Origin: a virus
Direction: 5' to 3' (one strand)
IMG/VR virus record: IMGVR_UViG_3300013005_005109
Location: 1 to 23,318 of that record
DNA length: 23,318 nucleotides
A program made the position numbers and the translations under genes. The notes beneath the pieces were generated by a model, which was not told the DNA's origin, did not search any database, and worked only from the letters and a program-made list of their open reading frames with translations. Positions 7,601 through 22,857 of the stretch are shown piece after piece. How positions within the stretch are numbered: position 1 is the first letter of the stretch; the number at the start of each line of letters is the position of its first letter.

Positions 7601-10600
7601 TTATGAGGGCCTTGCATATCCGGCTGAGCGTAGAGCACGCGTTTGCGCCTCTGCTACCTTCTTGGCTAGTTTATCAATATCTCCGGCGTTAGAGACGCTT
7701 GGGTTGTTGATTACTACAGATGCGTTGACGGTCTGGCCGCCGCCCACGGCGGTGACGCCCTCTGGCCCACGCATCTTGTGGTTTGGGATAATGCTGCCGC
7801 CAAGGCCGCCTGGAACCAGAAGCTCTGGGCCGCGCTCTCCGACCATATACCCTACGTTAGGCCGAACGGCACCACCAAAGGCACGCCCACCAATCTTCCG
7901 AAGTGGCTCACCAGAGAATGGAACATTTGATGGTCCGTCAAATGGGAACGGGGCATTTGGGCCAACGTTGTACACCGCTCCACCACCGGCCTGGATCATT
8001 TGGGTTCCCTGCTTTGCGGATTCTGGGTTGATGAAGCTAGTGTAAATCCAGTCGCCAAGCATTCCGCCAAGGATGCTGCCGATCATGCCGCCAATAAATG
8101 GGATTGGAATCAAATTGCCAAGGAGGCCGCCAACCAGCGAGCCGACGGTTCCGGCCACTGCTCGCCCCATATCGCCGCCGGTAGCCCCCGTCGTCAGAAG
8201 CCCTGCAATCATGGCTGCCGGTCCGCCAATCTTTGGAAGGATGCTAAGGAGGTTAAACCCTAGAGATGGAATGAGTTGACCGAAATTCTCAAAGTTACCA
8301 CTAATGGCCATCATGGCAACATCTGCAAGGAATCCTGAGAGGAAGTTACCCTTTTTGGTACCGACAAAACTATCTGCCCTTGCGGCCGTACCCTTAAACC
8401 CGCCCTGGTCTGTGGTGTAAGTCTTCATCCCCGGAAGGTTTAGCTTGCCGCCAGTAAATGGTACGGCAACTTTTCGATATTTAGAGCCGTATAGCTCCGG
8501 CATAAGCCCCGCCCTAACAGCCCCAGGGTCCCTAATGCTCCTAAAGTCAAAGGCTCGAGCCACTTCTCGCGGATATTGAGATCGGGCAGCAGCAACGGGC
8601 CTCACTGAGGCCGGAAGAGTTCCCTCTGCTATTTGAGCCTGCACACGTTCGTAATCAAGGTCAAGCAGTTGGCCGGCAGATTGAAGCTTGCCGAACGCCG
8701 CCTGTGTGAAAGGATCAGCAGTACCCCTGTTGGAAAGCGGGTCAGGAAGTGATTCCTGGGTATGCCCCGCGAAAATGTCAGCAAAATGTTCCATTGGGTC
8801 TGCGCCTGAATAAATTGTTGGTAGCGGGAAGTTTCGCGGCATTGTATATTCCGGGCCGGTGGGGTTCGTAGGGATTCTGCCAAGTGGTTTGCTGTTCGCA
8901 GCATTGGTGGCAATTTCCTTAGCCCGGATAGGGTCAAAGCCTTGGGCAATTAGGCTTTTCTCATAGGCTGCAGTCAAATCTTTCATTTGCATTCTTTCTT
9001 GGAGGTCAGCAATATGCCCTCTAAGATCGCCCTTCGTCTTAATTATTCCAATGGTTTCTTTTAAATTTGATGGCTTGAAGGCTTCTAGGTACATCTTCGG
9101 CACGGTGTAGCGATTATTAGTAATAAGGTGTCCAACCTCGTGAATCATTGCATCCGGCAGTTCGGTTAGTGGCGTGCGCGTATCAACTTGAATATTATTT
9201 GTGTCAAAACGAGCAACTCTTGCAGCAAAGCCCGAATCGGGCCCTCCGTCGACAAGGTCAACAGTTAGTCGCTTGCTCGGATCTGATGGGTCAAACATGC
9301 CTTGCGGCGCAGCGGCAAGGGCCAACCGAATGTTTTCAGAAATTATCTTAAGCTTTTCGGCACTAGTATTTCCTACAAGGGTGTGAGGGATGCGTATATC
9401 CCCCCAATCAAAACTTATAAGGTCCGCAGGCAACCCCTGTATAGGAAAACTATATTTATTACCGTATTTATCTGTTTCGCCAATAATACCCTCAAACCTA
9501 TGCTCGTCGATAACTTGAGAAAGAGATGTCCTATCCCTAAATGCTTGCACACCCGGTATAAGGCTTAGGATTGTGTCCAGCATGCCAGGCCTGAGGTCGC
9601 CCATAACTGTTCGTTGAGCCGGCTTGCCCCTCAGGCCCTCTCCCACCCTCAGGACCCGAGACATCATTCTTTCCTGCAGGTCAGCAGCAGGGTTATATGG
9701 GTCTACTACATCTGAAGATGGGAACTTGCTGAAAAGATCAAGCTGTTCGCCGCCGGACTTTGGAATTACCGGCGCGTCATCTAGTAGCATCTTGAGCGCT
9801 GGGGCGTCTACGGGCCCAAGTTCGGGGAAGAGTTCTGGCTGGGTATAGAGGAGGCGCTCTCGGATCAGTGCAACCTTATCCTCAAACGATCCGCCGCGAG
9901 GAATTGTCCTGGCAACACGAGTTCGCTCCGCCTCGATGTCAATGTTTTTAGCGCGCACTCCCTTAAAGTGCTCGTCGGCAGTGACGGCGTAGAGCGCAGC
10001 TTCGTCAATGTTAGTAAACACCCCTGCTCGAAGGAGAGATGCCGCCTGCGCCGCTCGGCCGGCAAGGATGCGGCCTGTCTCCTGCTGCCGGAGAATCGTT
10101 TCCTTTGCTGCAAGAATTTGCTCGGGGTCAACCGGCATACCGCCAGATGAGGCTCGCCAGTCGGCAATTTGCCTCTCAAGAACGTCAGTTGCGACTGCGT
10201 GATTTCCAAGGTCGGTAAAGCCCATTGCCGCAAGCGCAGCAGCCCGTGCTTTTGCTTCAGCGTCATTAAACGGCCGGTAACCGTTTTTGTCATCGATTAG
10301 AGTTGGCAGACCAAGGATTGTCTCGATTTGATCAATTGGAATGCCGCCAGGGATTTGGAACTCTGCAAGCCTGGTTGCGCCCTTGCCGCTCTGGGGAAGA
10401 GCAGAGGTAAAGCCTATCCTCTTGTTTTCCGGGAATGAGGCTGGGTCGGTTGCAAAGAATGGGAAATGATAGTCGCCGGATAGGAAGTCATTGAATGAGG
10501 TGGTCACATGAGGTGGCTTGTATCCCGGTCGGGTAACAACCGAAGTAATTGGGTCTGCTCCGCCCAAGCTCATGAGGTCAGAGGCATCTCCGCTGAGCAG

Positions 10601-13600
10601 GTTGCCCAAATGGCCGTAGTCGCCGGCAAGGCCGCCAACAATCGAGCTCACCACGCCCGTAGAAAGCGGTCGTGATCCCCTACCCCAAATGCCGCGCTTG
10701 ACAATATCAAGGCCAGGATCAAGCTCGTAGGTATCTCGCAAGCTCATTGGGCGCGAGATGTTAGAAAGCTGGGACAACCCCAGCATATTTCGTGCAAGGG
10801 TTTCAAGTGGTCCCGGAAGCTTTCCTGAGCCGACAAGCCTGGCCAACGCGTCAGCGAGATCCGGCCCAGGCATGATTGACTTCAATCCAGCCCCGTAAAG
10901 AGCGCTCAGGATATCAACAAAGCCGCCAACTCCAGCCAGATTGCTGTTGCTCATTCCCGGAGGAAGAATCTGATGAATAAATCGGGTAGCCGGGTTGGTG
11001 TAGTCCTCAAGCCAGCTCAGCTTGCCGTCGTAGCCACGGCCGACGTCTGTGGCATCAACTGGCCCGCCCTCAGCTCGGCCGCCACCGAAGCGAATCTTTG
11101 GCATTGCGGTTGGGCTTGGCAAATTCAGAAGCTCGCTTCCCGGCGTTAGACTTGGCTTCGGAGCTGGGTTGTTGAATCCGCGATTGTAATTAAACAAGTT
11201 TCCAAAGAAGCCTAGGTCTTTCTTTTGGCCCATATCAATAGACTGCTGTGTTTGCTTTCCATCCCAGACGTTGCCAAAGAGGAGGTCATAGACACTGCCA
11301 GAAATCGCGTCTAGGGCAGTGGCAACCGCCGCATTTGCAGCAAACATTCCTGCGGTTGCCATTCCGCCGCTGGCTACTACTCCTGCAACATTTGGAACGG
11401 CCATGGCAAGTGCGCCAACATTCATGGCAATATTGCGCACCCAGGCACGAGCTGGAGACTCTCCGCGCTCGCTAGCGCCCAAAATGTCAAAGAAGCTCAT
11501 GCCTGTACTGAGGATGGCGGTACCCCTAAACGCCTGGGCCATAACGTTTGCGGCGCTCTTACTTATAGCGTTGCCAGGCTTAAGTTTTATCTTTCCATCA
11601 GGGCCTTCAACCTTTATGCCCGGAACAAAGCCGCTCTTCGGCGACCATGTTTTAATATTTCCAGGACCCTCCCAATTGAATGGGGCAATCTTCCGAACGC
11701 CAATATCGTTCTTAAATCTGTCCCACCAGTTTGGGCGCTTGACTACGGCAAAGGCGTCATCTTCCTCAAACGGAGTCGTTGTGCCCCTGTTATAGCCAGT
11801 GAACTCGCCATTTGGTCCGCCGTAGATTCGACCAATGCCGCCAAGTGGAATGACCGAGTTGATCCACTTTGTATACATCCTAAAATTGAACGGGAACAGC
11901 CCCCATGGATCGTTGGTTGTTGTTGGCGTTGGGCCTGCTGTTGGTGTTGGGGTTGGAGATGGCGTTCCGGTAGGAGTTGGCCTTGGAGTTGGGGTTGGTG
12001 TTGGCTCCCATGACGGCTCTGGCGTTGGGCCCGGGGTTGGGTCCGGGACGAAATCCTGAGGCATGATGCCCTTGCCATACCCAACGTATCCGCCAACCGC
12101 TCGGCCGTATGCGCCGGCACGAAGAGCGCCAGCCGAAGACTTAAGTGTTGATGGGAGTTTATGGTTTGGCGTGACGTATCCGCCGCCCTGCTTGAACATG
12201 GTGAGCATCTCTGGTCCGCGCTCGCCAACCATATAGCTGGTGGCACTGGAGAGGGACCCGCCCATAGCCCTATTCCTGTCTGGGTTATACCCAGCAAGAC
12301 CAGACATAACCATCTGAAGAAGGGTCTGGAACTGCTCCATAAACCCAGTATTCAAATCATCGTATTGGCCGGTTGTGTACTTTCCTCCTGGGGTATAGAC
12401 ATTCTGCATGCGCTGAAGCTGCGCAAGGAATTGGCCAATTTGGTTAAAGCGCTTTACCCGCTCTGGATCGTTTCCGCCAATCTCTGGCTTAACCAGGGCA
12501 TAGTATTCACGGAGCTTTGTCTGAAGGTTCTTAGCATCAGAAATACGTGCCTTAAGCAAGTCCACCATGGTCTGACCCTTGATGGTTCTTGTCTCCGAGT
12601 CTGGGTTCATGATGGCGTTCAGCGCGTCTTGTGCCTTCTTGTACGCAGCAGATTGCGACAAAACGTTTAGGGCGGCAGTAATGGCCTTAGGAAGGGCGGC
12701 AAAGGTCGAGTTAATGTTTGCCTGCAACGCAGCCATGAAGCCAGAGGAGAACGATTCCATGAAGGAGTAGCCCTGGGCAGAAGCGACCTCTAGGTCAAGG
12801 CCAACGTCACCAAAGATGTCCTTAAGCTCGGTAGATGCCTTGGACTTGCTAATCTTGCCTTCTTGGATCTTCTTGAGCAGGTCGTCAATGCGCTCTTGCA
12901 TGACGCGGCTACGCTCTGCCTGATCGAGCTCAAGCGCCCGGGCCTTCTCGTCGTAGAATTGGGTAGTCCCAACGTATGCAGAGCTGGTCTTGCCGGACTG
13001 GATGGCGGCCCCCATTGAGTCAAGACGTGCGCGCTGCTCATCTTGGAACATCTCACGTGCGGCGTCTCGCGCGGCGCGGGCGCGTTCCAGTGGATCAACG
13101 CTAGCATCAAACATGTCAAGGGCGGCCTCTGATGCCCTTGTCCTTGACTCTTCAAGCTGCTGCAGCTTTTCCATCTGCTTTGCCTGGGCTTGCAACGCTT
13201 CGTACTGCTGCTCCAGGACGCCAAGACGGATCATTTCTCCGTCATACAGAACCTCAACGTTTGCAAGTGCTGCAACCTTCTCCTGCTCCAGGGCTTCCTT
13301 TTCGGCCTCAAACAGTGCCTGGATGGCAACCTGTGCTCGGGACATGAGGCGATTAAGCGGGGTCTGGAAGGCTTCCATTGCCTTCTGCATTGCCTCTTGC
13401 GCCTGCTGCAGGAGCTCTCCGGTGGCGTCTAGGGCCTTGGTAAGCAGGCTGATGTACTTTGTTGCCTCGGCATCGCCAGCGCCATACCACTTTGCATAGA
13501 GTTCTTCAACGTATTTCTGATCAAGGTTAAGCGTCTTTGCCACTTCGTCAGGCGAGAACCCCTCTCGAAGCATTTGCTTGATCTTGTCCTGCTGCACTTG

Positions 13601-16600
13601 TTCCAGCTGGCCGATAATGCCAGTTGTGCTCATGGACCACGAAGGATTGTCCCGGAGCCATTGCTGGGCTCGTGATGGATCGCTGTCCGCAACCATTTCT
13701 CTGTTAATTTGCGTGTCGTATCTAGCAGCAGCGCCTTGAGGATCAATGCTTGCGCCCATAAGAGCAAATGTGCGCCTGAGGTACGTTTCAAGGTCATCAA
13801 GGAATCCGCGCTCTTCGGCATAGAGCTCCGGGAACATCTCCTTTGCTTTGTCTTTTCCAACCTGGCCCTCAAGGCGGGTCCTTGTGTCGGTAACAACTTT
13901 TGCCTTTGTGTTAATTGGGTTATTGTTAAATGCCGCTTGCGCTGCTTTTGAAAGCTCCCCAGTAAGGAAAGCCAACGCCATGACCGCACCAGCAATACCA
14001 AAGGTAAGCGCTGCGGTCTGTGCGCTTGTAGCTGCAGTAAGGGCGATGAAAGCGCCGTGCAAGGCCTCTGTTGCCATTCCAACCATCATCATATTGTTAA
14101 AGACAGTAGAAATGCTCTCGTCAAGACCGAGAAGGTTAGAGGCAATGCTGCCGAACATGCCAAACCCGGTCAGTACTCCGCCCAGCATGCCAAGGCGAGA
14201 CCTAACGGCATCAATAATAACGCCGAGCTTAGCGAGCTTCCCGTTTGCTGCGGAAAGTTTGTCTCCAAAACCCTTAACTCTGTTGGTAACGCTTTCTAGC
14301 CCTGCGGCAAGTGCTTGCTCAATTTGGGCTCGCTCGCTGGCACCTACGGTGTCTAGGAAGTCATTGTATCCCTTTGGGTCGTCTATGCTGTATTTCTTTA
14401 GTTCCGCCAATCGTTGAGTTGCGTAATCTACGTCAACGCCAGTATTGAGAACTGAATCTACCCCGCCGGCTGGCGCAATAAATTCTCGACCACCCTTAGA
14501 GGCCCCTAGGGCTTCTATAAATGCAATGGCGCGTACAAGCGCCGGCGATGTGATGGTTTTGCCCGGCGTATTGTCAACGCCGAATCCGGATGCGACTAGG
14601 TTCCCGTCTTGGTCTTGCCTTTGGATAGGAACAAGACGCTGCATGCCATAGCTTTCTACGGCACCAAGGGCCTTGAATGCAAACATGCTGATTTTGAGTT
14701 TTGCCATTTGCTCTGCGGACCTGGCAGCAGCGTTAGCAAACTTTGTCATTGCAAGGGCAAGGCCATCAACCAGAAGTTTTCCGCCGACGAATCCAGCAAA
14801 GAGCACACCAAAGAGCGGAGCAAGAGGCTCAATAACCTTCATTATCCCAGCAAAGGCGGCCAAGATTCCGTCAATGACTGGCATTGCGGTAGAAAGTGCC
14901 GAGGCAATTGTAGCGGCAAGCGTCCCGATTGATGCGGCTGCGGCTGATGAGACTCCTGGGATTACCGAATTGGCGATTGAATCCGCTGAGCTAAGGATGC
15001 CCGGGGCAGCTCGGTCAAAAGCAGAGCGAACGCCATACTGGTTATTTTCATAGGCGTTAGCAAGGAACCCAACAAGGGCCGTGCTGGCTCCAAGAGTTGC
15101 TACAAGCGGGTTGCTACTGATAAATCCAAACAGGGCCCTGGCAACAATAATTGATGCGCCAAGCTTGCGGATAACATCATTAGAGAGGATCTCGGCCATT
15201 GCCTTAAATCCAGAAACCGAGGAGGTAATAAATGCGTTTAGAGGACCCCCGCTGGCCGTTACTGCGCCGCCGATGCCCCCAAGTGTCTTAAGCACGGCAT
15301 CCATAAAGCCGCCGGCGACACTAAGTCCCTCTGGGAGGCCAGATCGGATTGCCTCCGCAACAGTTTTAACTGAACGTGCGAATAGCTGAGATGCCTTTAT
15401 TGCCTCTTCGCCCTGGAGGAATGTTGCAAGGCCGTCGTTAAACTCTTGAGCCTTTGTTCCAGCAAGAAGGTCTCGCATAACCGAGAACAGTGGATTAAAC
15501 GCTGTTGCAACAAGCGACTGAGACGTATCCGCAACAGTCGTCATTGCTCCTTGGAAGGTGCGTGAGAACGCCTTCATACCGCCGCCGTATTTTGCCTCCA
15601 GCCCCTGCAGGATCGCCTGAACTCCGCCAGGCCCAGAGAGGGCGCCGATGCGAGCAAGGCGGCGGATTTCTTCGATGGCGGACTGTGGGTTTAGCAGCTT
15701 CTTGTATGTTGCGCTAGCGGTTTGCCCAGTTCGCTCAAGCTCCGCAAGCAAAGCGTTGGCAAGAATTTCATATCCGGCGATACCAGCGTTTGCCAGCTGC
15801 ATCATGTCGTTTTGATAGACGCGTCCAGCAGAGTTCATTTGTCCGAGTGCGTACGTTACTCGGCGGAGCTTATCGTCTTCGGCACCGAGTGCCGCAACGG
15901 CGTCTCCAATGTTTACAAGCGCCCCACGGAATTCCTTCAGGCCGGTTGTTGAGTACGGGTTGGTAAACGACTCGAGAATCGGCATTTGACCTTGGGCTTT
16001 TGCTTTAACGGAGTCAACCTCGAAGCCGAATGCTTGCATGCGGACGGCTGCAACCTCAAGGTCACCGAACCTGAAGTTTGTGACGTTGGCAAAGTCTTTA
16101 AGGGTTTGAATTGTTGATTCTGTTTCCCGCTGTGCTTCCCTTACGCTGCGTCCTGCATTCTTGAAGAGTGTATTAAATCCAACTCCGGCGGACTCAAGCA
16201 TGGCGTTAAAGCCAATGATGCCGCCCATGAGGTGTTGGATTCCGCCGGCAAAGGCAAAGATTGCCTGCTGGCCAATGGCAAACGAAAGACCAAGCGAAAG
16301 AACGCCGGTTACGGATTGTGTCAATCCGGTATTTGCCTGGGTCAAAACATTTGCTAGCTGACCAAATTGAACGCGACCATCTTGGATGACAAGATTAAGT
16401 CGGCTGTTGGCGGCTCTGGCTGCCTCTGCCGCCTTGGCATTATTTTGGAACTCTGTAACTGCTTGCTGCTTGTTTACTACAGAGGCTTCTGCCTGGGCGC
16501 CGTACTGGACTTGTGCCTCTCGGTATTGCCCAACTGGGCTAAAGCGCTCAAATATACTGCGTCCGTAGGATGATGCAGTCCGCATTCGGGCCGCACGAGC

Positions 16601-19600
16601 CTCGGCTTCTTGGCGAGCCCTCTCAACAAAATCAATAGGTTGGCCGCTGAGCGGCACAAGTGAACCGCCAGGTGGAATGTTGTAGACAGGCTCACCGCCT
16701 GGCAGGCGGAACTGAGGGCCAGATTCATTTGGGTAGGCACCGGCAGGCAAGAAACCGCCACGGCGGGTTATTGGCAGTGGCATGCCAACGAGACTGCCCT
16801 TCTGTACTAGCGCGCCACTTTGGGCAATCTCGGCATTGATCTGTGAAACGGTAGACTGGAGGATGGTCTTTGTAAGCTCATTGAGCTGCTGCTGAACCCC
16901 CGGATCATCTGCGGCCACTCCGGGCTTTTGCCCCTTAATAATCTTTTCAAATGCTTCTGGGTTGATGGCCATGGCAACAGCCTGCTTCTCGGCCTCTGAT
17001 GCGTTGGCCATGAACGCGGCCATCATCTCTGGTGTTCGGTTGGAGATACCGGTTATGCCACGAAGCTCGCTTCCTGGCTTGAGCAGCGAGCCGGTAGCCT
17101 GGATAAACGCACGCTGCAGGGCCTGTTCAAACGGCATGTTAAGGCCCTGGAATTGCTTGGCAGCCCCAGACCGAATGCCGCCCTCTCCGTATGATCGGAT
17201 GGTTTCAGAAAGGATAGAAGCAATCTCAAGGAACGAGGTCTTTGGGAACATCTTGGAAGACTTGCCAAGCTCTCCAATTCCTGCCGAAACTTGGGCAAGC
17301 AGCTCTTGGATTGGAGCCCCGCCACCCTGCACCTTTGCTGCGGTTTCATGAATCTTGGTAGCAAACTCAGTAAAGAGGGTTGAGGCGGAGACAAGCGAGG
17401 GCTTAGTTTTAAATGCTAGCTCCTGAAGATGTGGTGTGAGTTGCGCTGCGGCAATGCCAACGCCAAGCCCGGGGGTATTGAAGCCTTGCGGCCGCGATTG
17501 AGCATATTGGTGAAAGGCAAGATTGGCGAGGAGGCCACCAGTCTTTTTAGAGATCTCTGCCTGGAGTTGGTAGAACATTGGGTCAGCATGGCTAATTCCT
17601 CTGCCGCCTTCAGCGGAAAGAATTCCTTGCAGGCTCTTTTCTCCAAGCTTTTCTCCCTTTGGCCCGTAATGCATCGCTGTGGCTGGCGGCGTATAGCCAC
17701 CCTCCTTCATCCGCTCAAATGCACCGTGCGCAATTTCATGGATTGCAGTACGAAGAATGGCTCCTGAGCCTCGGTTTAGGTTTCCAATCTCCAGGAACCC
17801 GGCAGCTGCACCGGTAGTTGTCTGCCCCTGCAAGCCTTCACTCTCGCCAGGGAGTCCACGGAACGACGCCTTAAAGTGTTGCAAAATCTGAGATGCAAAG
17901 TTCCTTTCTAGGAAAGGCTTAAATGCCTCAGTAATGCCCGGAAGCACGCCCTCAACGGCCTCGGTCATAAACTTTGTATTGGCGGTGCGCGGACCGACAG
18001 AGGCGCTCTTACCAAACATGAGTCGCTCAAAGCGCTGCATTCCTGGGGTCCTGGCAACAGCCTCAGCGGCAGCCTGGGTAGCTGCTTGTGTTGCGGCTTG
18101 GGTAGCGGCCTGGGTAGCTGCTTGTGTGGCTGCCTGTGTTGTGGCAGGAATCAGGCTGGCCGTTGACTGGCCAGATGAGGCGGATGCAATGAGCGCTTGA
18201 TGCGACGCAAGTGGCGGGACCAACAGGCCACGAGTCTCCATGAGGGCACGTGCCTTATTCAGCTCGGCAATCATTCCCTCAACGTGAGCCGAGCCAAAAG
18301 CATGACCGCCCTGCATGCCAACCTTAGCCAACTCATTGGCAAGATTTTTATACCCCTGAGTAAGGTTTTTGTTTAGTTGTTCCTGACGAGCCGGGTCAGA
18401 CTCTTCGTACGGCAGGTATCCACCGGCACGAGCCTTTGCAGAGCCCTTAGCAGTTCCGGTTGCGCGCGGATTAAGGCGATATGAGCGTGCGCTTTCTGGG
18501 CGACGCATCGAAACTGGTTCCTCTGGTTCCTGTGGCTCTGGGGCCGCCGTAGGTGCCTTTGGGGGCTTAGGAGGCTTCTCTCCGCCGCCGCCGCCGCTAG
18601 AAGCTGGGGGCGCTGAGCCAAGATATCCAGGGTCTCGGGCTGCAGAAGCCTGGATTGCGCCCTCAACGGCCTCTTGGATAAGGCGCTCGACGCCCCTAGC
18701 GCCCTTACCCTGCCCAGACTTGAGTCCGGCAAGCATGGTGGCAGCTGCCTCTTGTGCAATCTGCAGTGCAACACGTGGGTCTGCTGTGATTGCGCTTGGG
18801 TCAAGCCCCATGCCGCCTTGGGTTGCAGACATTGCGCGTCCGCCATAGGTAGAAAGGCCGGCAAAGAATGCAGGAAGGCCCCGGCCAGCTGCAAGAATGC
18901 TTGAGGCAAGCTCAACGCCTTGGGCGGACGGCTCTCCAAAGGCAGTTGTTTGCGCGGTAATAAGTTTTCTGGCTTCTGCAAGCTTGCCAGCAACCCTTCC
19001 CATTCTGCTTGCCCCGCCGGCAACCGCCTGGGCAGCATTGATCAGCTCAATTGCTTCTGGGAGCGCATTGTAAATCGGGTCCATTCCGGCTGGAATCTCT
19101 CCAGCGCCAATTCTGCCTCGAAGTTGCAGCTGTGGCCCAACCGCCTTGTGAAGTTCTCTTAGTAGCGGCGCTGGAATGCCGCCGCGCTCGCCTTCCAGAA
19201 TCCTGCCGACCATGCTCTCAGTTGCAGCGTTGTTACCAAATGCCGTAGAGAGCAGCACGCCCTCCATAAGCCTTTGCAGCTTTGGACTAGTTCCTCCCTT
19301 GGCTGTCTGGTACTCAGAACGCACTCGCTCTACGGGAATTTCAGCAAGAACAAGCTGCTTTAGCTCTTCGACGGCAGATCCGCCCTTGCGGATTGTTGGG
19401 CCAACATTTCCGCGCTCAAAGCCGCCAGGAATCCGTGCAATAGTTTTAGAAATCGCTTGCGCAATTTCCGCTTCGGTCATGCCGGTAGAGAAGTTAAGCA
19501 TGGAGCCAAGGCGTGAGCCTTCTCGTGTGCCAATTTTTTCAAGGCTTGCCGTAAGCTCTCGCGTCACCACCGGCGTCCTTCCGGCTTGCACTATTGCTAT

Positions 19601-20698
19601 AGCCTCGTTAATCGCCCTTGTTACGCCCGATGGCCCGCCAAATGCTGCTGGATTTTTTGTAATAAACTCTCGTACTGCTGTAATAATTTGCTCTTTCCCT
19701 GGCTTGGTGGAGGCAAGTTGCTGCATGCCAAGCGTTCGGGCATTTCCGGAAAGAACCAATGCGGCTTTAGATACCTCAGAGCGAACTGTCGCAACAATTC
19801 CCTCTGCAAGGTTAGGGCTACCGTAGAAAATCTTCTGTGGGTCAAATCGGCCGGAGATTTCCTCAATGAGCTGGCGAGAGGCAACGCTTTCAGCTCGGCC
19901 AGCGCCACCACGAGCACGTGGTTGAAGATACTGCGGGTATGCGGGCTGCCTTGAGGTAACAAGCTCCTCAAGCGCCTGGACAACATACCTTGCCTCTATT
20001 TTTCCGCCAGAACTGCGCGGGTCGGCAAAGCTTTCGGCCGGGGCTGGCTTTGGTGTTGCGGCACGCTTAGGTGCCCGGGCAGGCCTATCGCTCTCCACGT
20101 CATCAATTAGGCCAGACCGTCGCAGCTGCGAGCGTATGTTTTCAACGTTTCTGCGGTCACCTCCGGTAGATGGGAAGAAGACCATGCGCTTGGACTTGTC
20201 TGGCGGGTAGGCAACAAAGTGTCCGCCATTGGTCTTTTCAATGCGGAACCCTTGGCGTTCGGCCTTTGCCATCAGGGCTCGTAGGCTTGCCTCTTGGCCA
20301 CGGCGAATCCTGGCGTCTTGAACTATGCCTGAGGAGGATGGGGAGGAGGAGACCCGCCCGGCCTGGCGCTGGACACGCTCCGAAGCTGCGGCTAGTCGGG
20401 ACATTTCCTCCATAGAACGACGAACGGCCCCGCCGACACGGATCGCATTGCGTTCCATGTCGCGCAGAGCCGGTATCGCCGTGCGAGTAATGTCTTTTGC
20501 AAATCCGGCAACGGGGGACTTCGATCCGCTGCCGAGTAGGCCGCCAGACGCAAGGGAGATTTGCTTGTTCGCAGACTGCAAGGCCTTAAGGCCGCTGAGA
20601 AGCCTGTCAATGTCGCGGAGCGTACGGGCTACACCGTCCTGGAATGCGGCAGAGTCAAGCGATATGCCAACCCGTGCTACATTATCAATCTCGGCCAC
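7601..20698 (-). CDS. Giant multidomain tape measure protein (4,365 aa)
   Basis: Tape measure protein, the helical ruler inside the tail tube that is released when DNA is ejected. It begins at GTG (20698), eight bases after a GGGGGG stretch and just after the chaperone stop, with a typical start (VARVGISLDSAAFQDGV). In order: HicA-like fold (about 137-199); helical region; Gly/Pro linker (about 695-727); AATQ repeats (856-875); zincin-like domain with HEIAH (987-991); tape measure core (about 1465-1740); several long hydrophobic stretches (about 1800-2300); coiled coil (about 2417-2573); VGERGPE motif (2824-2830); Pro/Thr linker (about 2885-2929); a second half of about 1,400 residues with a hydrophobic stretch and a second zincin motif HEVGH (3853-3857) plus E3970; Gly-rich hydrophobic region; a second VGERGPE (4286-4292). 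No lysozyme, NlpC/P60 or M23 domain was recognised. It is far longer than most tape measures (about 700-2,000 aa). The stop TAA is 3 nt before the hub gene start. Confidence 0.93.
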   Translation of the reverse strand: MAEIDNVARVGISLDSAAFQDGVARTLRDIDRLLSGLKALQSANKQISLASGGLLGSGSKSPVAGFAKDITRTAIPALRDMERNAIRVGGAVRRSMEEMSRLAAASERVQRQAGRVSSSPSSSGIVQDARIRRGQEASLRALMAKAERQGFRIEKTNGGHFVAYPPDKSKRMVFFPSTGGDRRNVENIRSQLRRSGLIDDVESDRPARAPKRAATPKPAPAESFADPRSSGGKIEARYVVQALEELVTSRQPAYPQYLQPRARGGAGRAESVASRQLIEEISGRFDPQKIFYGSPNLAEGIVATVRSEVSKAALVLSGNARTLGMQQLASTKPGKEQIITAVREFITKNPAAFGGPSGVTRAINEAIAIVQAGRTPVVTRELTASLEKIGTREGSRLGSMLNFSTGMTEAEIAQAISKTIARIPGGFERGNVGPTIRKGGSAVEELKQLVLAEIPVERVRSEYQTAKGGTSPKLQRLMEGVLLSTAFGNNAATESMVGRILEGERGGIPAPLLRELHKAVGPQLQLRGRIGAGEIPAGMDPIYNALPEAIELINAAQAVAGGASRMGRVAGKLAEARKLITAQTTAFGEPSAQGVELASSILAAGRGLPAFFAGLSTYGGRAMSATQGGMGLDPSAITADPRVALQIAQEAAATMLAGLKSGQGKGARGVERLIQEAVEGAIQASAARDPGYLGSAPPASSGGGGGEKPPKPPKAPTAAPEPQEPEEPVSMRRPESARSYRLNPRATGTAKGSAKARAGGYLPYEESDPARQEQLNKNLTQGYKNLANELAKVGMQGGHAFGSAHVEGMIAELNKARALMETRGLLVPPLASHQALIASASSGQSTASLIPATTQAATQAATQAATQAATQAATQAAAEAVARTPGMQRFERLMFGKSASVGPRTANTKFMTEAVEGVLPGITEAFKPFLERNFASQILQHFKASFRGLPGESEGLQGQTTTGAAAGFLEIGNLNRGSGAILRTAIHEIAHGAFERMKEGGYTPPATAMHYGPKGEKLGEKSLQGILSAEGGRGISHADPMFYQLQAEISKKTGGLLANLAFHQYAQSRPQGFNTPGLGVGIAAAQLTPHLQELAFKTKPSLVSASTLFTEFATKIHETAAKVQGGGAPIQELLAQVSAGIGELGKSSKMFPKTSFLEIASILSETIRSYGEGGIRSGAAKQFQGLNMPFEQALQRAFIQATGSLLKPGSELRGITGISNRTPEMMAAFMANASEAEKQAVAMAINPEAFEKIIKGQKPGVAADDPGVQQQLNELTKTILQSTVSQINAEIAQSGALVQKGSLVGMPLPITRRGGFLPAGAYPNESGPQFRLPGGEPVYNIPPGGSLVPLSGQPIDFVERARQEAEARAARMRTASSYGRSIFERFSPVGQYREAQVQYGAQAEASVVNKQQAVTEFQNNAKAAEAARAANSRLNLVIQDGRVQFGQLANVLTQANTGLTQSVTGVLSLGLSFAIGQQAIFAFAGGIQHLMGGIIGFNAMLESAGVGFNTLFKNAGRSVREAQRETESTIQTLKDFANVTNFRFGDLEVAAVRMQAFGFEVDSVKAKAQGQMPILESFTNPYSTTGLKEFRGALVNIGDAVAALGAEDDKLRRVTYALGQMNSAGRVYQNDMMQLANAGIAGYEILANALLAELERTGQTASATYKKLLNPQSAIEEIRRLARIGALSGPGGVQAILQGLEAKYGGGMKAFSRTFQGAMTTVADTSQSLVATAFNPLFSVMRDLLAGTKAQEFNDGLATFLQGEEAIKASQLFARSVKTVAEAIRSGLPEGLSVAGGFMDAVLKTLGGIGGAVTASGGPLNAFITSSVSGFKAMAEILSNDVIRKLGASIIVARALFGFISSNPLVATLGASTALVGFLANAYENNQYGVRSAFDRAAPGILSSADSIANSVIPGVSSAAAASIGTLAATIASALSTAMPVIDGILAAFAGIMKVIEPLAPLFGVLFAGFVGGKLLVDGLALAMTKFANAAARSAEQMAKLKISMFAFKALGAVESYGMQRLVPIQRQDQDGNLVASGFGVDNTPGKTITSPALVRAIAFIEALGASKGGREFIAPAGGVDSVLNTGVDVDYATQRLAELKKYSIDDPKGYNDFLDTVGASERAQIEQALAAGLESVTNRVKGFGDKLSAANGKLAKLGVIIDAVRSRLGMLGGVLTGFGMFGSIASNLLGLDESISTVFNNMMMVGMATEALHGAFIALTAATSAQTAALTFGIAGAVMALAFLTGELSKAAQAAFNNNPINTKAKVVTDTRTRLEGQVGKDKAKEMFPELYAEERGFLDDLETYLRRTFALMGASIDPQGAAARYDTQINREMVADSDPSRAQQWLRDNPSWSMSTTGIIGQLEQVQQDKIKQMLREGFSPDEVAKTLNLDQKYVEELYAKWYGAGDAEATKYISLLTKALDATGELLQQAQEAMQKAMEAFQTPLNRLMSRAQVAIQALFEAEKEALEQEKVAALANVEVLYDGEMIRLGVLEQQYEALQAQAKQMEKLQQLEESRTRASEAALDMFDASVDPLERARAARDAAREMFQDEQRARLDSMGAAIQSGKTSSAYVGTTQFYDEKARALELDQAERSRVMQERIDDLLKKIQEGKISKSKASTELKDIFGDVGLDLEVASAQGYSFMESFSSGFMAALQANINSTFAALPKAITAALNVLSQSAAYKKAQDALNAIMNPDSETRTIKGQTMVDLLKARISDAKNLQTKLREYYALVKPEIGGNDPERVKRFNQIGQFLAQLQRMQNVYTPGGKYTTGQYDDLNTGFMEQFQTLLQMVMSGLAGYNPDRNRAMGGSLSSATSYMVGERGPEMLTMFKQGGGYVTPNHKLPSTLKSSAGALRAGAYGRAVGGYVGYGKGIMPQDFVPDPTPGPTPEPSWEPTPTPTPRPTPTGTPSPTPTPTAGPTPTTTNDPWGLFPFNFRMYTKWINSVIPLGGIGRIYGGPNGEFTGYNRGTTTPFEEDDAFAVVKRPNWWDRFKNDIGVRKIAPFNWEGPGNIKTWSPKSGFVPGIKVEGPDGKIKLKPGNAISKSAANVMAQAFRGTAILSTGMSFFDILGASERGESPARAWVRNIAMNVGALAMAVPNVAGVVASGGMATAGMFAANAAVATALDAISGSVYDLLFGNVWDGKQTQQSIDMGQKKDLGFFGNLFNYNRGFNNPAPKPSLTPGSELLNLPSPTAMPKIRFGGGRAEGGPVDATDVGRGYDGKLSWLEDYTNPATRFIHQILPPGMSNSNLAGVGGFVDILSALYGAGLKSIMPGPDLADALARLVGSGKLPGPLETLARNMLGLSQLSNISRPMSLRDTYELDPGLDIVKRGIWGRGSRPLSTGVVSSIVGGLAGDYGHLGNLLSGDASDLMSLGGADPITSVVTRPGYKPPHVTTSFNDFLSGDYHFPFFATDPASFPENKRIGFTSALPQSGKGATRLAEFQIPGGIPIDQIETILGLPTLIDDKNGYRPFNDAEAKARAAALAAMGFTDLGNHAVATDVLERQIADWRASSGGMPVDPEQILAAKETILRQQETGRILAGRAAQAASLLRAGVFTNIDEAALYAVTADEHFKGVRAKNIDIEAERTRVARTIPRGGSFEDKVALIRERLLYTQPELFPELGPVDAPALKMLLDDAPVIPKSGGEQLDLFSKFPSSDVVDPYNPAADLQERMMSRVLRVGEGLRGKPAQRTVMGDLRPGMLDTILSLIPGVQAFRDRTSLSQVIDEHRFEGIIGETDKYGNKYSFPIQGLPADLISFDWGDIRIPHTLVGNTSAEKLKIISENIRLALAAAPQGMFDPSDPSKRLTVDLVDGGPDSGFAARVARFDTNNIQVDTRTPLTELPDAMIHEVGHLITNNRYTVPKMYLEAFKPSNLKETIGIIKTKGDLRGHIADLQERMQMKDLTAAYEKSLIAQGFDPIRAKEIATNAANSKPLGRIPTNPTGPEYTMPRNFPLPTIYSGADPMEHFADIFAGHTQESLPDPLSNRGTADPFTQAAFGKLQSAGQLLDLDYERVQAQIAEGTLPASVRPVAAARSQYPREVARAFDFRSIRDPGAVRAGLMPELYGSKYRKVAVPFTGGKLNLPGMKTYTTDQGGFKGTAARADSFVGTKKGNFLSGFLADVAMMAISGNFENFGQLIPSLGFNLLSILPKIGGPAAMIAGLLTTGATGGDMGRAVAGTVGSLVGGLLGNLIPIPFIGGMIGSILGGMLGDWIYTSFINPESAKQGTQMIQAGGGAVYNVGPNAPFPFDGPSNVPFSGEPLRKIGGRAFGGAVRPNVGYMVGERGPELLVPGGLGGSIIPNHKMRGPEGVTAVGGGQTVNASVVINNPSVSNAGDIDKLAKKVAEAQTRALRSAGYARPS
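7760..7890 (-). other. C-terminal tape measure signature (VGERGPE), terminal copy
   Basis: Residues about 4270-4313 read FGGAVRPNVGYMVGERGPEL, then LVPGGLGGSIIPNHKM, with VGERGPE at 4286-4292 (7843-7823). A short segment typical of tape measure C-termini follows (VNASVVINNPSVSNAGDIDKLAKKVAEAQTRAL). It is preceded by a Gly-rich hydrophobic stretch (VGGLLGNLIPIPFIGGMIGS) that could enter a membrane during ejection. Confidence 0.85.
8770..9290 (-). other. Second zincin-type metallopeptidase domain in the tape measure protein
   Basis: A beta-rich lead-in (RLTVDLVDG..., ARVARFDTNNIQVDTRT) is followed by LPDAMIHEVGHLI with HEVGH at residues 3853-3857 (9142-9128). At 113 residues downstream lies GADPMEHFADIFAGH, with E3970 (8791-8789). 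The 'dp.E.FAd.FA' helix is the usual place of the third zinc ligand (glutamate) in gluzincin-type peptidases. Both halves of the signature are therefore present, which makes this copy better supported than the first. Substrate unknown. Confidence 0.72.
11912..12046 (-). repeat. Pro/Thr-rich low-complexity linker in the tape measure
   Basis: Residues about 2885-2929 are almost entirely P, T, G, S and E in a PTP repeat (for example EPTPTPTPRPTPTGTPSPTP). It is encoded by GTTGG/GGTGTT-rich DNA on the plus strand. It separates the classical tape measure part, which ends with the first VGERGPE motif, from the additional C-terminal half. An extended, flexible inter-domain linker is the likely role. 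Confidence 0.88.
12140..12265 (-). other. Internal copy of the tape measure C-terminal signature (VGERGPE)
   Basis: Residues about 2812-2853 read AMGGSLSSATSYMVGERGPE, then GGGYVTPNHKLPS, with VGERGPE at 2824-2830 (12229-12209). This 'GG......Y.VGErGPE....GG.v.PN' signature normally occurs once, near the end of tape measure proteins. Here 1,500 further residues follow it, and the same signature appears again at the true C-terminus. Confidence 0.85.
12980..13450 (-). other. Long coiled-coil segment of the tape measure
   Basis: Residues about 2417-2573 are rich in A, E, Q, K and R with few prolines or glycines and regular hydrophobic spacing (LLQQAQEAMQKAMEAF..., ALFEAEKEALEQEKVAAL, LEQQYEALQAQAKQMEKLQQ, ARAARDAAREMFQDEQRARL). 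This is the rod-like, helical part expected to span the tube lumen. Confidence 0.75.
15480..16300 (-). other. Canonical tape measure core domain
   Basis: Residues about 1465-1740 contain the recognisable conserved part of phage tape measures. A hydrophobic segment (IFAFAGGIQHLMGGIIGFNAM) is followed by LESAGVGFNTLF, TLKDFANVTNFRFGDLEVAAVRM, the region with GDAVAALG, LRRVTYALGQMNSAGRVYQNDM, and MQLANAGIAGYEILANAL. The run 'AlgQm...Grv...dm.qLanaGi.gyeiLa' is characteristic of the family (TIGR02675-like). It lies 1,400 residues into the protein, although this domain is normally near the N-terminus. Confidence 0.85.
17430..18040 (-). other. First zincin-type metallopeptidase-like domain in the tape measure protein
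   Basis: The motif ILRTAIHEIAHGAFERM contains HEIAH at residues 987-991 (17740-17726) within a hydrophobic helix, the classic HExxH zinc-binding signature. About 46 residues later, GISHADPMFYQLQAEI offers H1037 or D1039 as possible third ligands, resembling the 'HGp.F' helix of several zincins. The flanks (about residues 887-1090) are mixed helix and strand, unlike the helical tape measure around them. The third ligand and activity are uncertain. Confidence 0.62.
18074..18133 (-). repeat. Five 12-bp tandem repeats encoding (AATQ)5
   Basis: Five consecutive units of A-A-T-Q (residues 856-875) are encoded by imperfect 12-bp repeats. A degenerate unit ATTQ precedes them and AAAE follows. Codons vary between units (GCA/GCT/GCC, ACA/ACC, CAA/CAG). 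The repeat sits just before the first zincin-like domain and likely forms an alanine-rich helical or flexible linker. Confidence 0.9.
20105..20290 (-). other. HicA-like domain within the tape measure protein
   Basis: Residues about 137-199 read as helix, then QGFRIEKTNGGHFVAY, then a basic loop and a strand (PPDKSKRMVFFPST), then DRRNVENIRSQLRRSGL. This matches the HicA/YcfA alpha-beta-beta-beta-alpha double-stranded-RNA-binding-like fold: 'Gf....ggH..y', a 'p' strand and a final helix ending in 'l...gl'. The histidine of the GGH motif is H160, the position of the catalytic histidine in HicA mRNA interferases. The match is by pattern; similar stand-alone or fused domains occur in phage proteins of unknown role. 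Confidence 0.6.
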
Positions 20699-20713: not shown

Positions 20714-21270
20714 CTAGGCCCCCGGCTTTCCGAAGACCGAAATCATTTGCTCCAGAGACCCAACTGTTTTCATCCCTGAAGAACCATCGGCGAATTTCGC
20801 CTTATTTTTACCGGAGGTGTTTTTGGTTTCGCCCTTCATCGCTTCATCACGCTTCTCAACATACTTTGCGTATGCATTGAGTTGTGGAAGCGTAAGTTGC
20901 ATGAACTCGGCTGGGGTATAACCAAAGGCATCTGCATAAGAAGCCATGATCGACCCCCAGTCGATCTCCCCCCAGCTTACGCCTCCGGAGCTTTTCCCTC
21001 GGAAACGCCACCCTCATCGTTGCCGATGAGACCGCTTGAGCGAAGCACCTTGTCGATTTCGTCACGCATTGTATCGAGCGAGAACTTGTCACCTACCGCG
21101 CGCTCATCCATCTTGTTGTCATCCTTGCGAAGGACAAGCCAAAGGATATAACGAAGTACAGTGAACTTGGTAAGGTCGACCTTGTCAAGGCCTCCAAACT
21201 TATCCTCAATGTCCGCGAGGTCGTTGAGGGTGAGTACGCGCGTTGGGCGTACTTGATTAAGGGTTGCCAT
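20714..21270 (-). CDS. Tail assembly chaperone, long (GT-type) product by -1 frameshift
   Basis: Predicted fusion made by slipping back one base at GGGAAAA (20998-20992). It is translated from 21270 to 20992, then from 20992 again to the TAG at 20716-20714, giving 93 + 92 = 185 residues. Directly after the slip the frame reads SSGGVSWGEIDWGSIMASYADAFGYTPAEF and then LTLPQLNAYAKYVEKRDE. This 'WG.I......G.tp.e...LtlpqL.ay' pattern is typical of the T portion of chaperones in lambda-like siphophages. The downstream part also exists as a 77-codon ORF starting at ATG 20947, but that ATG has no well-spaced Shine-Dalgarno and begins in the middle of the conserved segment. Independent translation is therefore less likely. 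The T part is thought to recruit tube subunits to the tape measure. Confidence 0.85.
20948..20966 (-). other. Perfect 7-bp stem-loop downstream of the slippery site
   Basis: The minus strand reads GATCGAC-TGGGG-GTCGATC, a perfect inverted repeat with a 5-nt loop. It begins 25 nt after the slippery heptamer and ends one base before the internal ATG at 20947. That spacing is longer than the usual 5-9 nt for a frameshift stimulator. It may instead, or additionally, block initiation at the internal ATG so that the T segment is made only by frameshifting. The function is inferred. Confidence 0.5.
20977..21270 (-). CDS. Tail assembly chaperone, short (G-type) product
   Basis: A 97-residue acidic, mostly helical protein (TLNDLADIEDKFGG..., LRYILWLVLRKDD, then a polar tail). 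It sits between the tube genes and the tape measure gene, where siphophages encode the G/GT tail assembly chaperones that coat the tape measure before tube polymerisation. The ATG at 21270 has a good Shine-Dalgarno AGGAG (21282-21278) 7 nt upstream. Five codons before its TAA stop lies the in-frame slippery sequence G GGA AAA, which gives a longer product (see the frameshift entry). Size, position and frameshift agree with the family although sequence similarity among chaperones is low. Confidence 0.85.
   Translation of the reverse strand: MATLNQVRPTRVLTLNDLADIEDKFGGLDKVDLTKFTVLRYILWLVLRKDDNKMDERAVGDKFSLDTMRDEIDKVLRSSGLIGNDEGGVSEGKAPEA
20992..20998 (-). promoter_or_regulatory. Programmed -1 ribosomal frameshift slippery site GGGAAAA
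   Basis: The minus strand reads GAG GGA AAA GCT in the zero frame, so the heptamer is G GGA AAA, a perfect X XXY YYZ match, close to the lambda GGGAAAG site. Slippage changes the reading to GGG AAA AGC TCC and enters the open frame of the T-type segment, avoiding the TAA at 20979-20977. It is located at codons 92-93 of the 97-codon chaperone ORF, the expected place. Confidence 0.88.
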
Positions 21271-21316: not shown

Positions 21317-22171
21317 TTAAGCCGTGATTGTCACGATTTGCGCCGTGCTGGAATCATACTGAAGGTTGAACTCAAGGTCAACCTTGATGATGTCCTCTCG
21401 TGTAAACGGAATGTTGTGCTGATAGATACAAACCTTATGGCCGGTGATCTCCACCGACTTGGATGGATCATCTGAGCGGATGTGCGTGAACACTGCACGA
21501 ACCGGTCGGTTGCGGAGCATCGACAAGTCAAGTGGGTTGACAGCCGCTGTACCAAAGTTAAGGTTTTCGCGGAAGTTCAACGTGCCTGGGTAGATGCTTG
21601 TCGAGCCATTATGGGTCAGCGTAGTGCTGAAGAGGCGCGAGAAGCGCATTGGGTCAAGCTCAAGTCCGCTGACGCGGATGGTTGACTTGCCACCAAAGTG
21701 TGCCTTAGCAATAGGGAAGTTAAACTGACCAAAGAATTCACGCTCTTGGAAGGAGATGTCAAACTCAACGTCGCCACCAATTTCGCCAATGTCCTGCATG
21801 CCTTGGTACTGAGCAAGGGCTGCGCTAGCTGGGTCAACAATGGCCGTAATGCTGGCCGTTGTTGAGGCGGTGTTGGTGTGAAGCCATTCGTAGTTGTAAA
21901 CGGTTCCAACATACACGTCGTACGTTGTGGCGCCGGAAAGCGCGGTCCAGGAAACATCAAGCTTCCCGGTTGCGCTAAGGATTGCCGTCAGCGGGGCCGA
22001 CGGAGTTGCCGTACCGGCAGCGTTCCGCCCAGCGACACGTACATAGTACGTGCCGGCTGGGACGGAGCCGCTAGCAGTTGAGGGGGTTACGGCGACGCCC
22101 GCAACCTGAGTATAAAGACCACCGGAAATCCAAGTACCGATTTGGAGCCGGCCGCTACCAAGTGTAAACAT
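21317..22171 (-). CDS. Second tail tube protein with inserted Ig/Fn3-like domain (paralog 2)
   Basis: A 284-residue paralog of the preceding tube protein. The shared block GGDVEFDISFQEREFFGQ begins at residue 132 here and at residue 47 in paralog 1, so about 85 extra residues lie between the common N-terminus (MFTLGSG...W14) and the common core. The extra segment (about residues 25-112) has an Fn3/Ig-like pattern: PAGTYYVRVAGRNAAGT, then LDVSWTALSGATTYDVYVGT, then a final TASITAI strand. Ig-like domains on tube proteins commonly face outward and are thought to help weak binding to cell surfaces. A Shine-Dalgarno AGGGGG (22185-22180) sits 8 nt before the ATG. The protein could be a minor decorating tube subunit or a co-polymer with paralog 1; the sequence cannot decide. 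Confidence 0.76.
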   Translation of the reverse strand: MFTLGSGRLQIGTWISGGLYTQVAGVAVTPSTASGSVPAGTYYVRVAGRNAAGTATPSAPLTAILSATGKLDVSWTALSGATTYDVYVGTVYNYEWLHTNTASTTASITAIVDPASAALAQYQGMQDIGEIGGDVEFDISFQEREFFGQFNFPIAKAHFGGKSTIRVSGLELDPMRFSRLFSTTLTHNGSTSIYPGTLNFRENLNFGTAAVNPLDLSMLRNRPVRAVFTHIRSDDPSKSVEITGHKVCIYQHNIPFTREDIIKVDLEFNLQYDSSTAQIVTITA

Positions 22172-22194: not shown

Positions 22195-22857
22195 TTACGC
22201 CGAGATCAGTACAACTGCTGGGGTCTTAGCACCACCAACGGTCGTGACACAATCGCGGTCAACAACAGCCGAGAAGTCAATGTCCTGTCGGGCAATGTCT
22301 TCACGGGTGAACGGCATCATGAGCTGCATGCTGTATGCCTTCGGTAGGTGAATAATCACCGACTTTGAAGGGTCGTCCGAGCGAATGTGCTCAAACTTGA
22401 CGTACAGCGGTCGTGGCAGGCCCATGAGGGCAGTCACGTTTGCAATGCTGGCGTTCGGGCGGCCACCGTCTGGGTCAAAGTTGACCGTGTACGAGCCACC
22501 GGTAAAGTCGTCATGGGCGTTGCCATAAACGGTTGAGCTAAGGTCGGTGCCCTCACCGAGCGAAACGTGGAAGAGGTTCTTTACGTTGTCCCAGTTAATC
22601 TCAACGCCACGTGCGCGAATATCGGCCTTACCGCCGAAGAACGCCTTGGCAATTGGGAAGTTGGACTGACCATAGAACTCTCGCTCCTGGAAGTTAATGT
22701 CGAACTCGACGTCGCCGCCGACTTCGCCAACCGTTACGAGCTCGCCAGCGGCGTTGTAGCCACCGGTCGTACCAAAGTAGTTGGTGCTCGTCTGATTAAT
22801 GACCGCTCCGGACTTCCAGAACGCCACCTTGACTACACCAGATCCAAGTGTAAGCAT
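22195..22857 (-). CDS. Major tail tube protein (paralog 1)
   Basis: A 220-residue protein interpreted as a tail tube subunit that polymerises as rings around the tape measure. It follows the terminator and precedes the chaperone pair, the usual position of the tube gene. It shares several blocks with its downstream neighbour: the N-terminus M[LF]TLGSG, a block GGDVEFDINFQEREFYGQ at about residues 47-64, FPIAKA..GGK, HIRSDDPSKSV and PFTREDI near the C-terminus. A Shine-Dalgarno AAGGGAG (22872-22866) lies 8 nt before the ATG and overlaps the previous stop. This copy lacks the inserted Ig-like domain of the second copy. Either copy could be the main tube subunit. I favour this one because it is the compact form. 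Confidence 0.8.
   Translation of the reverse strand: MLTLGSGVVKVAFWKSGAVINQTSTNYFGTTGGYNAAGELVTVGEVGGDVEFDINFQEREFYGQSNFPIAKAFFGGKADIRARGVEINWDNVKNLFHVSLGEGTDLSSTVYGNAHDDFTGGSYTVNFDPDGGRPNASIANVTALMGLPRPLYVKFEHIRSDDPSKSVIIHLPKAYSMQLMMPFTREDIARQDIDFSAVVDRDCVTTVGGAKTPAVVLISA

Follow-up and report, generated by a model that had tools for sequence, protein, structure and literature searches.

The gene contexts of HicA proteins (PF07927) have been sorted into 14 classes (Gerdes 2024, PMC10865869), none of which involves a phage tail protein; in class 14, SMC-HicA, HicA lies C terminal to a cellular SMC protein. Polyvalent proteins are very large proteins of many domains that are predicted to be co-injected with the DNA of phages or plasmids; DdrB-ParB domains and zincin-like peptidases are among their hub domains, the zincin being the commonest though not obligatory (Iyer et al. 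2017, PMC5512222). The main text of that paper mentions neither HicA nor tape measures. Gp96 of Thermus phage P23-45 is a tape measure protein (TMP) with an active N-terminal virion RNA polymerase; virions contain this polymerase within the full-length TMP, and in the authors' view its site of action is the TMP pore (PMC10770324). Here we describe a HicA-like domain near the start of a giant TMP of 4365 amino acids (aa) from an uncultured phage, encoded in IMG/VR virus record IMGVR_UViG_3300013005_005109. The stretch analyzed, here called the window, is the complete record of 23,318 bases; coordinates refer to it unless a locus number is given, and all of its features discussed below lie on the minus strand. 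We found no paper combining "tape measure protein" and "HicA domain" in a literature search. The fusion places a known domain in a new setting and adds a new cargo to the polyvalent theme.

An earlier note, made by reading the sequence, had placed a HicA fold at TMP residues 137 to 199, and our analysis confirmed that these residues (20102-20290) form a HicA-fold domain. With a hidden Markov model built from 17 TMP-free relatives, residues 138 to 197 scored 61.5 bits and 200 shuffled TMPs scored 4.7 bits at most, ruling out a chance match as the source of the signal. The family phrog_2089 matched the isolated domain at an E value of 1.4e-11 (positions 24 to 90 of 107) and the whole protein at 1.5e-9, with a single match per record in each of five records; the PHROG that carries a "toxin" label, phrog_353, matched the domain at 0.002. 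Pfam HicA matched 13 of 18 family members, the best at 8e-8, and the L011 copy of the domain at 4.4e-4. An AlphaFold2 (AF2) model of the domain had a mean pLDDT of 81.5, with blocks of about 90 across most of the core, and adopted an alpha-beta-beta-beta-alpha fold like that of a double-stranded RNA-binding domain (dsRBD). When the model was compared with about 350,000 PDB chains by Foldseek, the best matches were B. pseudomallei HicA (6g26, probability 0.97) and a T. thermophilus structure (1whz). The four top VIA-align matches were all HicA or HicA-like (1whz, Z = 6.0; 6g26, 5.8; 5yrz, 5.6; 6hpb, 5.0). A Z score of about 6 is weak alone; what gives the modeled fold its weight is that the first four places go to independent HicA structures whose alignments span almost all of the domain. 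A direct phmmer search of the domain against the PDB returned nothing useful, and profile hits to "Cake" repeat proteins were repeat artifacts.

The domain contains a GGH motif (G158, G159, and H160; 20219-20227), and hhalign placed its histidine, which follows glycine in the beta1-beta2 region, on the catalytic H23 of E. coli HicA (probability 76, E = 2.3e-5), in line with the proposal that H160 is a HicA-type histidine. In an alignment of 18 divergent family members, H160 was invariant together with D181, R183, and N187, which lie at the start of the last helix (20138-20158). The branch motif can be written GGH...TPSDxRxxxN, and its members are found in actinophages, where they are labeled "HicA-like toxin," and on plasmids. 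The closest sequence relatives are phrog_2089 actinophage genes such as Gordonia phage Sour gp71 and Microbacterium phage Brahms gp27; they have the same invariant H, D, R, and N and no HicB but, unlike the window domain, are free-standing proteins of 60 to 95 aa encoded outside the structural module. Compared with the HicA family (E. coli HicA, B. pseudomallei 6g26, and S. pneumoniae 5yrz), the domain is alike in fold, length, histidine position, and basic character (its isoelectric point is 11.2). It differs in having no HicB, in bearing GGH...STGGDxR in place of the canonical motif, in lying within a tail protein, and in scoring under the Pfam cut-off. Sequence comparison thus points to a HicA-superfamily (dsRBD-like) module of an antitoxin-less GGH...TPSD branch (phrog_2089), which is used both free and fused, without a recognizable antitoxin.

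The absence of a HicB gene beside the domain, which had also been pointed out before, extended to the HicB families PF15919 and PF05534, neither of which had a match in five records; no HicB partner was thus found elsewhere in the record either. Pfam scans of ten neighboring genes at the subfamily loci did not find HicB either. Because these records have no HicB, the domain falls under the Pfam HicA cut-off, and its closest free relatives have no HicB-like neighbor, the window domain is not part of a HicAB toxin-antitoxin system.

Matches to the family were present in 5 of 398 genomes (one draw from the phylum of a Bacillota metagenome-assembled genome). In two Bacillota genomes (L062:151-1674 and L063), chromosomal proteins of about 510 to 530 aa carry a GGH...TPSD HicA-like domain C terminal to a coiled coil, and they adjoin a carboxyltransferase-like gene. 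It is possible that these fusions represent a cellular, non-toxin use of the domain.

The open reading frame (ORF) that contains the domain (7601-20698, with a GTG start) has the profile matches and the position of a TMP gene, as the proposed fusion to the start of a TMP requires. It matched phrog_1686 (TMP, 1.1e-9), PF20155 (TMP_3, 1.3e-8, under its curated cut-off), and TIGR02675 (7e-4), all at residues about 1586 to 2600, downstream of the HicA-like domain, and it follows genes placed as major tail proteins and a tail-chaperone pair. The TMP_3 core spans residues 1588 to 1731 (15506-15937).

Relatives of this TMP turned up in viral contigs only. The earlier note had suggested looking for the same fusion in other phages, and six contigs besides the window were found to have it (L001 to L004, L011, and L034). 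H160 was retained in every domain-bearing TMP, as GGH or KGH, even in one that is 43% identical over the domain; loss of the histidine from an otherwise intact domain, which would have spoken against an enzyme, was not seen in these proteins. In two further TMPs (L036 and L037, 43 to 46% identity), the flanks align on both sides and about 70 residues are missing at the position of the domain, so that the N-terminal coil is followed by a short basic linker and then by FEDPRS..GKI, the start of a ParB domain. No match to phrog_2089 was found anywhere in these two records (91 and 55 kb). The basic, coil-like N-terminal segment (residues 1 to 125; 20324-20698) is 79 to 85% conserved between lineages, with or without the domain.

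Between the window and L011, the domain has a nonsynonymous divergence (dN) of 0.19, with a ratio to synonymous divergence (dN/dS) of 0.42, and its neighbors have a dN of 0.03 to 0.05; between the window and L034, the dN is 0.49 for the domain versus 0.12 to 0.15 for the neighbors. Wherever dS was computable, dN/dS was below 1. The domain therefore diverges faster than its neighbors yet is constrained where measurable, as cargo would be. A misassembly or frameshift artifact was ruled out by the recurrence of the intact fusion in the six contigs and by these ratios. The pattern is that of a swappable accessory, and the domain is an optional insert before the ParB domain, a point that adds to the earlier reading. 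A scan of genome contigs with the TMP N terminus, which bears on the prophage and host question, found no relative, and the large terminase had only weak matches (23 to 27%), to mixed hosts. Because few contigs were reached by the scans with free-standing HicA sequences, there may be further fusions of this kind in other TMP lineages.

Directly C terminal to the HicA-like domain lies a DdrB-like ParB superfamily domain (PF18763; residues 231 to 335; 19694-20008), which scored 29.0 bits against a cut-off of 27.6 when these residues were searched alone. The ParB domain was present in 7 of 7 records searched, above the cut-off in four of them, and it persists in L036 and L037, whose TMPs have no HicA-like domain. 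The HicA-like domain, the coil, and the ParB domain are all basic. Farther along, a zincin-like motif, HEIAHG (residues 987 to 992; 17723-17740), does not vary among 7 aligned sequences with identities as low as 36%, nor do H137 and D139 (alignment numbering) downstream of it. The AF2 model of this region, too poor to use, gave no fold match, and the zincin is putative. With a HicA fold, a DdrB-ParB domain, and a TMP core, the protein holds at least two domains of unrelated biochemical type and appears to be a polyvalent protein built into a TMP. Like the polyvalent proteins of phages, of which P1 DdrB and the N4 virion RNA polymerase are examples, it is a giant product of a late gene, predicted to be injected, in which a DdrB-like ParB domain is joined to zincin-like HExxH motifs; unlike the polyvalent proteins described previously (PMC5512222), its carrier is the tape measure itself. 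It resembles P23-45 gp96, which also has a metallopeptidase and membrane segments, in having an enzyme-like domain at the N terminus of a giant TMP. The gp96 RNA polymerase, however, is about 1200 residues long and has been shown to be active, whereas the window has a 63-residue HicA-fold module known from sequence and a model.

We consider it about an even bet (a probability of roughly 0.5) that the domain is an accessory, virion-delivered module that acts on RNA or another nucleic acid. The HicA-like module would be optional cargo of a polyvalent TMP, inserted after the N-terminal coil and before the DdrB-like ParB domain, and this TMP would sit in the tail tube and exit at infection. The N-terminal cargo would then reach the cell, perhaps freed by the zincin-like part, where the basic HicA-fold module would bind RNA (host transcripts, tRNA, or early phage transcripts) and might tilt the first minutes of infection in the phage's favor. 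We favor this reading because, by the P23-45 precedent, N-terminal TMP cargo can serve the phage at DNA entry. The earlier note's suggestion of an injected RNA-acting domain is thus plausible in a polyvalent context (DdrB-ParB, HEIAHG, and the P23-45 precedent). Its term "interferase" went too far for a domain whose RNA cleavage is hypothetical and whose side branch has no antitoxin, given also that an orphan HicA-like protein proved non-toxic when tested. Cutting of RNA by the module in an H160-dependent manner seems to us a possibility with the odds against it.

Several observations weigh against a virion-delivered, RNA-acting module. Entry of the TMP N terminus into the cell is plausible but would rest on the P23-45 precedent, and in the lambda TMP the C terminus is at the tail tip, which implies that the N terminus points to the head. 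Pfam HicA matched the window domain at an E value of only 0.1 (13.2 bits), short of the curated cut-off of 27 bits; the L011 copy, at 20.7 bits, was also below it. A home-made HicB profile found nothing near 19 subfamily loci, plasmids and chromosomes included, which makes a potent free RNase less likely; this negative is suggestive only, since the six positive control loci were those from which the profile was built. The orphan HicA-like protein LeBron gp82 is non-toxic though 44 to 49% identical to toxic HicA-like proteins (PMC13148394). Finally, a homologue on Cutibacterium plasmid NC_021086 has no histidine, the sole family member seen so. That 69-aa ORF (L041:1986-2195) appears as a tet(59) efflux pump among the resistance genes predicted by the plasmid database, apparently a mislabeling.

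The alternative that survives best is an injected HicA-type RNase toxin, in which H160 would cut host mRNA or tmRNA and shut the host down at entry. No antitoxin would be needed, since one virion would supply only a few molecules and the enzyme would stay inactive as long as it is threaded in the tail. Our preferred explanation becomes this one when put in its strong form, so the confidences given to the two overlap. The alignment of H160 with the catalytic histidine of HicA and its retention in all TMP carriers speak for it, as does a phage HicA of more canonical type that is paired with a HicB, Adephagia gp91, in which toxicity is lost when H31 or the matching glycine, G28, is changed (PMC11373665). 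We nevertheless think it unlikely: the TPSD subfamily has no HicB even where it is made freely from plasmids or chromosomes, LeBron gp82 is harmless, additional invariant D, R, and N residues accompany the histidine, and the TMP is made in the producing cell without an antitoxin. More doubtful still is the broadest version, in which siphophage TMPs are exchangeable effector carriers and this TMP brings three activities into the cell along with the DNA: a ParB-type nuclease, a self-processing protease, and a HicA-type RNase that has no antitoxin and acts before any phage gene expression.

A structural role is improbable. A head-proximal, basic HicA fold might bind the leading genome end or a head-tail connector protein inside the virion, and both the lambda analogy, which puts the N terminus toward the head and the DNA end, and the basic character of domain, coil, and ParB would suit such a contact. 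Two related TMPs do without the domain, however, while keeping both flanks, and a conserved His/D/R/N set combined with fast divergence is untypical of a structural adaptor. Less probable again, and retained as a minor rival, is a role as ParB partner, in which the HicA fold would steer the DdrB-ParB nuclease/NTPase on nucleic acid or control it. The two domains adjoin in the TMP, and in two plasmids a free relative adjoins a ParB gene (L040, and L043 as ParA-HicA-ParB), which would favor such a role. Of about 9 plasmid loci examined, however, just 2 have a ParB neighbor, which rules out a systematic linkage, and ParB persists in L036 and L037 without the HicA-like domain. In the P. veronii plasmid (L043:1983-2219), the free gene lies between ParA and ParB, an order that recalls the TMP; in the Tsukamurella plasmid (L040:2974-3186), it lies right after a ParB-domain gene.

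The rest of the window has a minus-strand order of major tail proteins (22195-22857 and 21317-22171), a tail-chaperone pair (20977-21270 and 20714-20947), the TMP, and two large downstream ORFs. The tail and chaperone labels are based on this order plus a weak match of a 97-aa ORF to the tail-protein family phrog_2115 (3e-5). A canonical slippery heptamer, G GGA AAA (20992-20998), lies in frame shortly before the first tail-chaperone ORF ends; a -1 shift there would lead into the frame of the second, as in the G/GT pairs of other siphophages. Simple repeats in the TMP, at residues about 865 to 890 and 2880 to 2930 (ATQAATQAATQ... and PTPTPTP, the latter in a stretch rich in Pro and Thr), have the look of flexible spacers that separate modules. 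A second zincin-like motif, HEVGH (residues 3853 to 3857; 9128-9142), lies toward the C terminus, where the sequence varies from relative to relative. A C-terminal HExxH was present in every relative read that far (window 8400-10000, L018:11810, L022:11848, L036:18659, and L037:16245), in surroundings that vary by lineage, as if this module were also exchanged between lineages.

Because a removable HicA-fold domain adjoins a DNA-enzyme-like domain near the start of the TMP, our findings suggest a tail protein that doubles as an effector package delivered into the bacterium. Related TMPs that naturally differ in having or lacking the HicA-like insert can be compared directly, and similar reasoning could extract effector modules from the many giant TMPs annotated merely as structural. 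If the ruler of the tail carries swappable RNA- or DNA-acting domains, then the first molecules to meet the host would be effectors already in the particle rather than early gene products.

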